A stretch of DNA of 45,682 bases, taken from contig NZ_AQPH01000023.1 in assembly GCF_000442515.1 (NCBI RefSeq), positions 1-45,682 on the forward strand. Reading direction: 5' to 3'. This DNA is from Magnetospirillum fulvum MGU-K5. GTDB taxonomy: Bacteria > Pseudomonadota > Alphaproteobacteria > Rhodospirillales > Magnetospirillaceae. Of the stretch, positions 43 to 36,159 are shown piece after piece. A model generated the notes under the pieces. That model ran no database searches. It worked only from the letters and a program-made list of their open reading frames with translations, and was not told where the DNA came from. Positions within the stretch are counted from its first letter, which is position 1. Each line of letters opens with the position of its first letter. A program made the position numbers and the translations under genes.

Positions 43-109
43 GCCGCTTGGCTCCGCGCCACGAGCCGCGCGGCCCCTTGGGCCTAACCAAACAGCCTGT
101 TTGGTATTA
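43..109 (+). repeat. Palindromic intergenic element, copy A (right half only)
   Basis: This shares the core CTTGGCTCCGCGCC, then a GCGCGGCCC...GGCCTA block, with the full copies at 21126-21261 and 34776-34927. It ends in TTGGTATTA. The terminal hairpin pairs 87-95 with 97-105 (ACCAAACAG / CTGTTTGGT). The left half seen in the other two copies is missing, and the terminator at 1-29 lies just outside. The last three bases (TTA on +) are the TAA stop codon of the patatin gene. Confidence 0.75.
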
Positions 110-21125: not shown

Positions 21126-21261
21126 TTATACCAAGCTGCATCATGCAGCTTGTAGGCCCAAGGGGCCGCGCGCCCCATGGCGCGGAGCCAAGCGAACGGA
21201 GTGAGCGCCCGGCGAATGAGGGCCTGCGCGGATCGATTTCGATCAGCGCAGCTTGGTATTA
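21126..21261 (-). repeat. Palindromic intergenic element, copy B (full)
   Basis: Read on the minus strand it runs TAATACCAAGCTGCGC, a hairpin, CCTCATTCGCCGGGCG, the core CTTGGCTCCGCGCC, a GCGCGGCCCC/TTGGGCCTA block, and a second hairpin ending TTGGTATAA. The right-end hairpin is a perfect CAAGCTGCAT/ATGCAGCTTG stem (21132-21141 with 21143-21152). The element fills the gap between the convergent TonB-like gene and chrR. Its TAATACC end provides the chrR stop codon (21259-21261). Confidence 0.85.
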
Positions 21262-21894
21262 CCCCGCGAACGGAGCGAACAGACGGCTAAGCAATCCGCT
21301 TGGGCGGATCGGGTCGTCGCCGACGCACAGGCACAGACAGGCTTGATCGGTATCGGCGACCGGGCGATAGAAGCGGTTGGCGGCCTCGACCGCGAAATCG
21401 CCGGGGCGGTAATGCCCGACCGCATCGCGATAGGCTCCCTGCAACACCACGTTAACTTCGGCGGCGGCGTGGCGGTGACGGGGCGAGACCACGCCAGCCT
21501 GCATCCGGATCAAGCGGGCCTGGGCGCGGTCGGAGCTGACCAGGATTGCCTGATCGATTCCGGGCGAGACGGGGTGCCAGGACAGACGGGCCGAATCGCC
21601 GCCGCAATAGGCTCCGATCGGGCCGGGCAAGGCGGAGCCACGGGCGGGCAAGCGGGGCGCGGGCGGGGTCCGGTCGAGCCGGGCCAGGGTGCGGGCCAGC
21701 GCGTCGTCGGCCATCGCGCAAATGGGAAGGGATTCGAACGTCGCTCCGGCCAGGGCTTCAAGCCGGGTCACTTCGGCCCGACAGCGTGGGCAGAAGGCGA
21801 GGTGGGTGGCGACGGCCAGCGCCGTCGCTTCGTCCATCGCTCCGGCGGCATAGGCCGCCAGCAACGCGTCGGAGGGGTGGAAGGAGGCGCTCAT
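21259..21894 (-). CDS. chrR: Zinc-binding anti-sigma factor ChrR
   Basis: ChrR holds RpoE inactive until singlet oxygen or organic hydroperoxides cause its release. The 211-residue protein has the N-terminal ZAS zinc site with His6, His31, Cys35 and Cys38 (HLAFCPRC), the same numbering I recall for Rhodobacter sphaeroides ChrR. A C-terminal cupin domain follows, with metal ligands in SPRHRHAAAEVNVVLQG and HYRPGDFAVE. The ATG overlaps the rpoE stop (ATGA), so the anti-sigma is coupled to its sigma factor. Its TAA stop codon is made by the first bases of repeat copy B. Confidence 0.93.
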   Translation of the reverse strand: MSASFHPSDALLAAYAAGAMDEATALAVATHLAFCPRCRAEVTRLEALAGATFESLPICAMADDALARTLARLDRTPPAPRLPARGSALPGPIGAYCGGDSARLSWHPVSPGIDQAILVSSDRAQARLIRMQAGVVSPRHRHAAAEVNVVLQGAYRDAVGHYRPGDFAVEAANRFYRPVADTDQACLCLCVGDDPIRPSGLLSRLFAPFAG

Positions 21895-34128: not shown

Positions 34129-34778
34129 ATGCCCCGTCTGCTGCTGGTCATCGCCGATCCCCTGCTGGCCGAGACCGTTGCCGGTCATCTCGGCCGGGCG
34201 ATGGCGGTGACCCGCGCCGACGATCCCGCTTCGGCCCTGGCGGCGGTCGTTGACCAGGATTTGATCCTGGTCGACGAGGCGGCCTGGAGCGGGGATGAGG
34301 CTCCGTGCCGGGCGTTGCGGGCAGCCGGGGTGACCCTGCCGCTGGTCCTGCTCGCCACCGGAGGGGCAGGCGATCCCGATGCCGATCTGGTGATCGCCAA
34401 GCCGTTGCGCCTGTCGGCCTTATCGGCGCGTTTGAGTGATGTTCTGTCCCGTCGTGCCGCCACGGCCGGGATCGCTCTCGGGCCTTGGCGGCTGGAATAC
34501 GACCGGCGGCTTCTAACCGCCATCGCCGATGAGCGGGCGGTGCGGCTGACTGACAAGGAAGTCGCGATCCTGCGCCGTCTGGCCGAGGCGGCGGGGGCGG
34601 TGGTCAGCCGCGAAAACCTGCTCGCCGATGTGTGGGGCTATTCCGCCGACCTCGATACCCACACGCTCGAAACCCACATCTATCGCCTGCGCCGCAAGAT
34701 CGGGGAGGGGGCGACGACGATTCGCCCGGCCTGTTGCGGACCGAACCCGGCGGCTATCGTCTCGCCCTTGAGGGGTAA
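34129..34778 (+). CDS. OmpR/PhoB-type response regulator, C-terminus shifted by one base
   Basis: A receiver-like domain (1-105) precedes a winged-helix OmpR domain. The receiver keeps the phospho-acceptor Asp (DLILVDEAAW), the Thr (LLATGG) and Lys (VIAKPL), but has one Asp where an acidic pair is usual (LLVIADPLL). The DNA-binding part reads RAVRLTDKEVAILRRLAEAA, WGYSADLDTHTLETHIYRLR and RKIGEG. The frame then breaks at five G (34707-34711). One more G restores the expected end DDDSPGLLRTEPGGYRLALE plus G, closing at TAA 34776-34778, 216 residues. Without correction translation runs through the repeat to 34989. Its TAA is the first codon of repeat copy C. No histidine kinase is nearby. Confidence 0.82.
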
Positions 34779-34927
34779 TACCAAGCTGCGCAGATCGGAA
34801 CCGATCCGCGCAAGCCCTCATTCGCCGGGCGCGGCCCCTCCGGGCCGCTTGGCTCCGCGCCACGAGGCGCGCGGCCCTTCAGGCCTAACCAACCCGCATG
34901 AGTTTCACTCATTGCGGGTTGGTATAA
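34776..34927 (+). repeat. Palindromic intergenic element, copy C (full, 152 bases)
   Basis: It starts TAATACCAAGCTGCGC, has a left hairpin (34787-34798 with 34801-34812, one mismatch), then CCTCATTCGCCGGGCG, a GCGGCCC/GGGCCGC stem, the core CTTGGCTCCGCGCC, and a right hairpin (34889-34903 with 34907-34922). It ends TTGGTATAA. The first three bases are the stop codon of the response regulator; the far end lies 1 base from the stop of the convergent reductase gene. Confidence 0.88.
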
Positions 34928-34928
34928 C

Positions 34929-35963
34929 TCAGCTCCCCGGCACACCGGCGGTGGTGGAATGGACGAAATGCAGCGCCGCGCCGGGGTGAACGACGTCGTG
35001 GGCCGAATGGGCGGCGCGGGCCGCTTCGGCAAAGCCGGTCAGGATCAGGCGCAGCTTGCCCGGATAGGTGCAGATATCGCCGCAGGCGAAGATGCCGGGG
35101 CGGCTGGCGGCACCGCTGGCGGGGTCGATGGTGACGGCATGACCGTCCATATCGAGGCCCCATCCGGCGACCGGGCCGACATCGCCCGATAGTCCGAAAA
35201 AGGCCAGCAGGGCGTCGGCGGGTATCCGCCGCGTCTCACCCTCCAGCGTGGACACGATCACCGCCTCCAGGTGGCCGTTATCGCCTTCCAGGGCATGAAG
35301 CTGGGTCGGGATCACCAGATCGATCCGACCCTGCTCGGCCAGCCGCAGCAACTCCGCCTCGGCTCCCGGAGCGGCGCGAAAGCGCGGGCGGCGATGGACC
35401 ACGCTGACCTTCGCCGCGATCTCGGACAGCGAGATCGCCCAATCCACCGCCGAATCTCCTCCGCCCGCGATCACAATCCTCTTGTCGCGGAAGGCTTCGC
35501 GGCGGGGCACGCTATAGAACACGCCGCGGCCTTCATATTGCTCCAGCCCGTCAAGCGGGGGCCGCTTGGGGGCAAAGGCTCCGCCGCCCGAGGCCAGGAT
35601 CACCGCGCGGGCCAGGATTTCCTCGTCGCCGCCCAATCCCATCCGCCAGCGTCCGTCCGGCTCGGGAGTCAGGGTGGTGGCGGTAACTCCCAGATGGTAG
35701 ACCGGATCGAACGGCGCGGCCTGTGCGCTCAATCGCTCGACCAGTTCCGAGGCCAGGATGCGGGGATGGCCGGGTACGTCATAGATCGGCTTTTCCGGGT
35801 ACAGCGCCGAAAGTTGCCCGCCGACATGGCCCAGCGCATCGACGACATGGCAGCGGACCTTGACCATCCCGCATTGAAAGACCGTGAACAACCCGACCGG
35901 TCCCGCTCCCACCACCACCGCGTCGGTTTCATGAACGCGCATTGTCTTTGGCCTCTTCGTCAT
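34929..35963 (-). CDS. Ferredoxin-NADP+ reductase (thioredoxin-reductase-like type)
   Basis: This is a flavoprotein of about 344 residues transferring electrons between NADPH and ferredoxin or flavodoxin. The FAD loop reads [20 protein letters not shown], followed by [23 protein letters not shown], the hallmark of TrxR-like FNRs (GGQ...YPEK). The NADPH site is [17 protein letters not shown], with [10 protein letters not shown] binding the phosphate. It lacks the redox-active CxxC of thioredoxin reductase, as expected. The C-terminus has [17 protein letters not shown]. The start is ambiguous between ATG 35963 (GGACGGA site) and ATG 35942. It converges on the response regulator, with repeat copy C between. 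Confidence 0.9.
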
Positions 35964-36082: not shown

Positions 36083-36159
36083 GCACCCGTAGCTCAGCTG
36101 GATAGAGTACCGCCCTCCGAAGGCGGGGGTCACAGGTTCGAATCCTGTCGGGTGCGCCA
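36083..36159 (+). tRNA. tRNA-Arg (anticodon CCG)
   Basis: A complete cloverleaf of 77 bases with encoded CCA. The acceptor stem is GCACCCG/CGGGTGC. The D-arm contains AGCTCAGCTGGATAGAG, the anticodon stem CCGCC/GGCGG encloses loop CTCCGAA, and the T-arm reads ACAGGTTCGAATCCTGT. Anticodon CCG decodes CGG, a common arginine codon at this GC content. Confidence 0.97.

Follow-up and report, generated by a model that had tools for sequence, protein, structure and literature searches.

Several families of short repeats with features of the elements described here are known. RUP of Streptococcus pneumoniae is a short repeat with ends resembling those of an IS630-family element and with a structured RNA, and it is thought to be moved in trans by IS630-Spn1 (PMC3049150). 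Its ends, host and composition differ from ours, and the parts of PMC3049150 compared contain no rule for the duplication of stop codons. SPRITE, also from S. pneumoniae, is enriched near gene 3' ends and folds into a hairpin as our elements do, but it is U-rich and terminator-like, which ours are not, and that source, in the parts compared, names neither a duplication nor a partner IS for it (PMC3049150). QMITE2 of Coxiella burnetii is a 150-190-bp MITE, located mainly in 3' untranslated regions and serving as landing site for IS1111; unlike our elements, it is described with variable duplications of 7-11 nt and, in the portion of PMC5896051 considered, without a tie to stop codons through duplication. 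Among insertion sequences, the IS1031 group of the IS5 family inserts at TNA and duplicates 3 bp, but the terminal repeats given as an example begin with GAACCTG (PMC12016507), whereas the IS elements sharing our ends carry an IS630-family transposase. The Fot group of pogo transposons (IS630-Tc1-mariner) has a transposase of a related superfamily and uses the 3-bp TAA instead of TA; it is not bacterial, and its duplications are TAA, while ours are TAA, TTA, TCA and TGA (PMC7386202). REP sequences, finally, are extragenic palindromes that serve IS elements as targets (PMC1525189). In the open-access literature, with most subscription journals outside the coverage, no description was found of the present family or of a bacterial MITE duplicating TNA at stop codons.

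The repeats analysed here, of about 150 bp, belong to one family of MITEs, miniature transposons that end in inverted terminal repeats and lack a transposase gene. Three copies had been noted in the window, the whole stretch of 45,682 nucleotides under analysis, and they are present as described at 43-109, 21126-21261 and 34776-34927 (copies A, B and C, Table 1); B and C possess both ends and measure 130-146 bp between the triplets, while A consists of the right half only. The element proper extends from TACCAA to TTGGTA and is flanked on each side by the same three bases. In the initial annotation TAATACC was taken as the end of the element; the outer TAA or TTA is instead the duplicated target triplet TNA and lies outside of it. 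Whatever its middle base, TNA reads as TAA or TGA on one strand and not on the other. This explains the resemblance of the element's end to a stop codon, and a stop codon that receives an insertion is restored by the duplication. An in-frame TAA stop had been assigned to all three copies. This applies to A (patatin-like ORF ending at 107) and B (ChrR-cupin ORF ending at 21259), but to C only in the original frame of the response regulator. As the DNA stands, the regulator ORF reads through element C to 34989, and its Trans_reg_C domain was matched only to position 59 of the 77 profile positions. In a relative, genome G004, the conserved tail of the regulator runs to a TAG stop at about the place corresponding to copy C. 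The frame of the regulator (window 34129-34775) is shifted before the element, which is either real or a sequencing error.

Table 1. Features of the three element copies in the window
Positions	Strand	Feature	Basis
43..106	-	Copy A, truncated: right-end half retained, left half and left target triplet missing	BLAST to copy C positions 69-125; sequence
107..109	-	Target triplet TTA, in-frame TAA stop of patatin-like gene 107-1237; same TTA stop in M. fulvum G006 without element	ORFs, relative, profile match
21126..21128	+	Copy B, left target triplet TTA	sequence
21129..21258	-	Copy B, 130-bp element TACCAAGCTGC...GCAGCTTGGTA; absent in G004	sequence, relatives
21259..21261	-	Copy B, right target triplet TTA, in-frame TAA stop of ChrR-cupin gene 21259-21894	sequence, ORFs, profile match
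34776..34778	+	Copy C, left target triplet TAA, stop of the response regulator in the frame it had before the upstream shift of this assembly	
34779..34924	+	Copy C, 146-bp element TACCAAGCTGC...TTGGTA, chain of hairpins	sequence, BLAST, folding
34779..34812	+	Copy C, left end: TACCAA plus hairpin GCGCAGATCGG-AA-CCGATCCGCGC (TGATC-type end)	folding
34888..34924	+	Copy C, right end: hairpin CCAACCCGCATGAGTTTCACTCATTGCGGGTTGG closing in TTGGTA (TGAGTnnnACTC-type end)	right-end pattern, folding
34925..34927	+	Copy C, right target triplet TAA	sequence

The core sequence CTTGGCTCCGCGCC occurs nine times in the genome containing the window (3.77 Mb in 178 contigs, the window being contig C23), compared to zero occurrences of the reversed control. 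BLAST with copy C yielded 51 matches in this genome at E <= 10, including 24 at E <= 1e-5, and matches in 29 of 60 genomes, counting its own; every one of the 17 searched genomes of the genus is represented. Over the species collection, at least 120 stretches matched the left-end pattern. Eighty titled stretches among the matches listed belong mostly to Magnetospirillum, Paramagnetospirillum, Telmatospirillum and unnamed alphaproteobacterial or proteobacterial MAGs; Phaeospirillum, Thalassospira and Terasakiella are also among the matches listed, a few of which resemble chance matches. In viral contigs, the left-end pattern was detected in three stretches, one of them with a TAA-flanked left end. 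The genome with most copies, G024, has 90 right ends according to the right-end pattern. Identity with a known Rfam family was rejected, since 34700-35000 gave no match to Rfam 15 up to E 1; only a tRNA at 36083-36156 reached the gathering score in the window. The inner core (CCCTCA..CGCCGGGCG..GGCTT..GCGCC) is also present without TACCAA ends in L027, L028, L030, L031, L034 and L038 (contigs C66, C80, C37 and C1 of the same genome as the window), as if a separate repeat served as a module. One-hairpin mini-elements of about 30-50 bp with TACC...GGTA ends were seen in L110, L402, L324 and L154. Those in L110 and L402 have TAA on both sides and are situated at a gene stop codon, by reading for L110 and according to the gene caller for L402.

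For the analysis of the flanking triplets, the scan provided at least 126 left ends, three from viral contigs, and 123 were kept. Pairing of ends by arm similarity alone gave 75 two-ended copies among the matches listed, 57 with TNA on both sides and 51 clean; an earlier count giving weight to equal triplets (66 two-ended copies, 53 clean, 30 of the 53 at stops) is superseded by these figures. The middle base is equal in 51 of the 57 TNA-flanked copies, while re-pairing resulted in a mean of 17.9 and a maximum of 29. To be counted against a duplication are 24 of the 75 copies without identical triplets, 18 of which lack TNA on both sides; several of the 24 are chance matches or decayed copies. 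From G024, 63 stretches around the listed matches were examined (about 0.23 of 3.4 Mb), rather than all 90 right ends. They contain 65 right ends and 46 usable two-ended copies, many others being cut by contig ends. In 42 of the 46 the triplets are identical and the copies clean (TAA 20, TTA 14, TCA 5, TGA 3). Within one genome, copies that resemble each other are flanked by triplets that vary from copy to copy yet agree on the two sides; together with empty sites in relatives, this shows a 3-bp TNA target-site duplication. In L118, L172 and L176, TGA on the left is combined with TCA on the right, or TAA with TTA, and each end could provide the stop of a gene approaching from that side; the unlike triplets could go back to mutation or to recombination between copies.

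The loci around A, B and C were taken from 17 genomes of the genus, and those of G004 and G006 (M. fulvum) were the only ones close enough for the sites to be read. At site A, M. fulvum G006 has no element, and the patatin-like gene ends in TTA there. At site B, the same element is found in the same place in M. fulvum G006; G004 is without it, and its ChrR-like gene ends in TCA. At the empty sites, A in M. fulvum G006 and B in G004, a single stop triplet is in place. Element C is absent in G004, while a different neighbour in M. fulvum G006 makes the site unreadable. Near site A, a 40-bp mini-element in G004 splits the TAA stop of the next gene, a stop that is single in M. fulvum G006. Copy B with its triplets is identical over 136 of 136 positions in M. 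fulvum G006, the only window at 1.0 among 170 (median 0.90). The DNA around copy B is about 89% identical to the M. fulvum orthologue (L384, L090), and the identical 136 bp could be attributed to constraint, conversion or recent exchange. In another copy common to the two genomes (L013/L104), a gap and substitutions separate the species.

As had been noted initially, there is no matching transposase in the window, and the search of the 178-contig assembly for the IS630 type was negative as well. The RAYT-like partner initially suspected was not supported: the common ends point to an IS630-family partner instead. A first scan for long elements with strict ends gave no useful candidate, but seven pairs emerged when the fetched loci were searched for long elements bounded by TACC ends and matching triplets. 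One of these, in L131 of Telmatospirillum siberiense, measures 1167 bp, lies next to a MITE, has TGA at either side and carries an IS630-family transposase spread over two frames. This transposase matched DDE_3 and scored 127.6 bits with the NCBIfam model IS630 NF033545 (cut-off 100). When 55 genomes of the family were searched with the L131 protein, 22 had a match at E <= 1e-10, the genome of the window and G024 not being among them; the absence from these two counts against the proposed mobiliser. Of the loci with an L131-like protein, 31 were examined (L131 and L417 are one copy), and end pairs were determined without information on the triplets. Nine distinct IS630-type elements of 1158-1179 bp with TACC(A/G) end pairs were obtained; no TACC end pair was detected at the remaining loci, likewise a point against it. 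Identical TNA triplets flank six of the nine (TAA four, TGA two), while three, to be counted against, have unlike ones (TCA/TGA, TAA/TTA, TAG/TAA). The L425 element starts with TACCAAGTCCCGGTGATCAGGACC and reads TACCAAATCCCAATGAGTCGGACTCA at its other end, thereby showing both end types of the MITE, and its right end had already matched the right-end pattern. L441, with a transposase of 148.9 bits that is 44% identical to that of L131, has TACCAAGTCCCGGT at both ends and TAA/TAA triplets. The MITE thus has ends in common with IS630-type elements that could be autonomous, L425 and L441 (TACCAAG/TACCAAA ends, TAA/TAA). In L131/L417 and L441 the transposase is spread over two overlapping frames, which could be programmed frameshifting or decay.

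IS630-family elements typically duplicate the 2-bp TA. A TA duplication is also given for Tc1/mariner in PMC7386202. The present elements are different, with 3-bp TNA flanks identical in six of nine IS630-type copies and a single TNA in the empty sites of the MITE. From the resemblance of the ends, the 1.16-1.18-kb IS630-family elements of relatives are the likely mobiliser, which would act in trans. Other candidates were rejected. The MITE resembles the IS1031 group in its TNA target and 3-bp duplication, but ends common to an IS5-type element were not found: 30 loci with PF13340 had no TACCA end pairs by the test used. Three of the 30 have GAGKCCG ends with TAA on both sides, and in L243, L257 and L258 (G009, G016) the PF13340 elements of IS5 type display GAGKCCGTCC ends with TAA on either side. 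In L180, two ends separated by 1.1 kb were not accepted as an IS; the content between them is presumably galE-like. The IS110-family element of Telmatospirillum MAG_CA127 was dismissed as mobiliser because its L269 copy is located within a MITE; no Pfam match was obtained with a 47-residue fragment of its transposase taken by itself.

The MITE itself is a landing place for other elements. At L269 of MAG_CA127, the IS110-family element (PF02371) lies inside the MITE, and there are five left halves that terminate in this IS sequence. Another PF02371 element begins exactly at the MITE end (L267, L270). After the right end of the MITE, a similar stretch is found in L358 and L365 of G024, with no transposase seen there. 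IS110-family elements inside the MITE or at its end occupy fixed places in L269, L267, L270, L358, L365, L115, L122, L137, L140 and L227. REPs are known as IS targets (PMC1525189), and IS110/IS1111 elements are reported to pick their targets via RNA guides (PMC11208160, PMC11187229).

The location of the copies relative to genes was determined with our own codon-usage gene caller after the element and one triplet had been excised from each locus, and all other TNA sites of the same loci served as background. The pooled set comprised 93 clean copies, 81 after removal of duplicates, and the four in called coding sequence were excluded from the logistic fit; the family is multicopy and mostly intergenic. 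Of the 81, 41 are found in in-frame stops and 36 in non-coding DNA. The separate sets gave 28 of 51 clean scan copies at stops (among the matches listed), 21 of 42 in G024, and 13 of 27 at other fetched loci, which partly overlap the pooled set. For the TAA kind, stops received 27 insertions to 94 background sites, compared to 31 to 935 in other non-coding DNA (odds ratio 8.7, P 1.7e-12), and for the TGA kind the values were 14 to 246 versus 5 to 1625 (odds ratio 18.5, P 3.9e-9). Sites 1-20 bp downstream of gene ends were also preferred to more distant ones (TAA kind, 9 to 54 versus 22 to 881, P 7.8e-5; TGA kind, 3 to 134 versus 2 to 1491, P 0.005), and stops did not differ significantly from them (P 0.24 and 0.19 for the TAA and TGA kinds). 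In the logistic fit, the TAA kind had an odds ratio of 8.5 relative to the TGA kind, and G or C on either flank 3.4 each; by location, the values were 10.6 at stops, 8.9 at 1-20 bp downstream, 2.2 at 21-50 bp and 0.8 for sites no more than 60 bp from a gene start. The difference in log odds between stops and 1-20 bp downstream was 0.17 (s.e. 0.41).

Because stops and the TNA sites 1-20 bp beyond gene ends attract insertions with similar ease, the insertion bias is toward gene 3' ends and not demonstrably toward stop codons as such. A strict stop-codon target was rejected, being inseparable from TNA within 20 bp downstream; of the earlier proposal that the element targets stop codons, the association with stops persists, while a preference over nearby downstream TNA is not significant. 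Similarly, three of three copies at stops did not prove to be the rule, although the strong association with stops and 3' ends did. In the genome of the window, five two-ended copies with identical triplets were found; the gene caller places B alone at a stop, two of the five if C is counted, and the other three are 18, 162 and 7 bp from the nearest gene 3' end. Nor are convergent gaps a rule, since in G024 insertion into TAA-kind stops is as ready in front of tandem genes (7 to 22 background sites) as in front of convergent ones (8 to 18). Divergent gaps of G024 had 7 insertions to 89 TAA-kind sites versus 4 to 116 in tandem gaps, while in the scan set 2 insertions to 300 sites were recorded for divergent gaps among the matches listed. 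None of the nine IS630-type copies is at a stop, compared to 41 of 81 MITEs (P 0.003), a difference for which a shared target rule alone does not account; the gene caller puts three of the nine inside genes. In this small sample, the IS630-type copies may be younger than the MITE copies. In pneumococci, IS elements are located further from genes than small repeats (PMC3049150).

A fold alignment of 22 of 45 candidate copies, thinned for likeness, contained 37 consensus pairs, 18 of them with two-sided changes. Both end hairpins stay paired while the stem sequences change. Copy C has a fold z of -7.13 as RNA and -7.46 as DNA. One terminator-like site was predicted on its minus strand (mean of 0.1 in shuffles), and no T-run terminator on its plus strand. 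The covarying hairpins fit reading of the hairpins by a transposase or a role as RNA alike.

In all likelihood, the elements form a MITE family with IS630-family ends and TNA duplication, concentrated at gene 3' ends probably by harmless retention. Lacking a transposase, the MITE would move via an IS630-family transposase recognising common ends; TACCAA with the TGATC-type hairpin on the left and TACCAA with the TGAGTnnnACTC-type hairpin on the right are the counterparts of IS630-family ends in relatives. Insertion occurs at TNA, preferably TAA or TTA with G or C on either side, and duplicates the three bases, so that an insertion in a stop codon leaves an intact stop on the gene's side. Within 3' ends, comprising the stop and about 20 bp beyond, stop codons with a neighbouring G or C are the commonest good target. 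The concentration there most likely reflects retention where insertion is harmless, perhaps aided by a function of the hairpins at 3' ends. Alternatively, transposition could be actively steered to gene 3' ends through transcription termination, paused polymerase or hairpin DNA, with selection being secondary. The bias is equally strong in the G024 burst, where half of the similar copies are at stops and 22 of a single size class have a median pair similarity of 0.96; the odds do not fall near gene starts, and divergent gaps of G024 are not avoided. Steering is nevertheless judged rather unlikely in view of the IS630-type copies, which are absent from stops, and of the poor divergent gaps in the scan set; moreover, insertions within called genes are nearly absent, and purging therefore clearly operates. 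It also appears unlikely that insertion is directed to gene 3' ends with the stop codon as principal target, rebuilt on insertion, which would make the family a near-harmless bacterial IS630-type element with hairpin ends and a TNA rule, homing to gene ends.

Copies at stops might also be favoured rather than tolerated, if their hairpins terminate transcription or protect mRNA 3' ends and the element is kept as a 3'-end module. Strong covarying hairpins, the fold z of copy C, the terminator-like site on its minus strand, the identity of copy B in M. fulvum G006, and the SPRITE repeats at gene 3' ends, proposed as co-opted terminators in PMC3049150, would agree with such a function. It is considered improbable, however, as the plus strand of copy C is devoid of a T-run terminator, the L013/L104 copy has diverged between two species, copies are present in divergent gaps too, and the covariation could equally stem from recognition of the ends by a transposase. 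REP/RAYT elements are not known to make target-site duplications; our elements differ from them by the 3-bp duplication and the IS630-type relatives. An origin of this kind, with movement by an HUH (Y1) transposase via single-stranded hairpins, was rejected and is very improbable: the triplets differ among similar copies of one genome yet match on both sides, which requires target duplication, and the transposase found in elements with matching ends is a DDE enzyme of the IS630 family. The palindromic, extragenic nature of the repeats and their covarying hairpin ends would be compatible with it, as would the fact that IS110-family elements hit them as they do REPs (PMC1525189). That three of three copies at stops are mere luck in a family without bias, TNA being common, would suit the few copies at stops in the genome of the window, but the enrichment at stops for both kinds of triplet makes this extremely improbable.

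The MITE family illustrates a simple route to a near-neutral mobile element, in which a 3-bp duplication, every form of which is a stop on one strand, makes the stop codon a safe landing place. It also suggests that the IS630 kind includes a branch duplicating 3 bp at TNA. The genome with 90 right ends, G024, represents a natural system for distinguishing targeting from selection in a bias toward 3' ends, a question that is usually hard to test.
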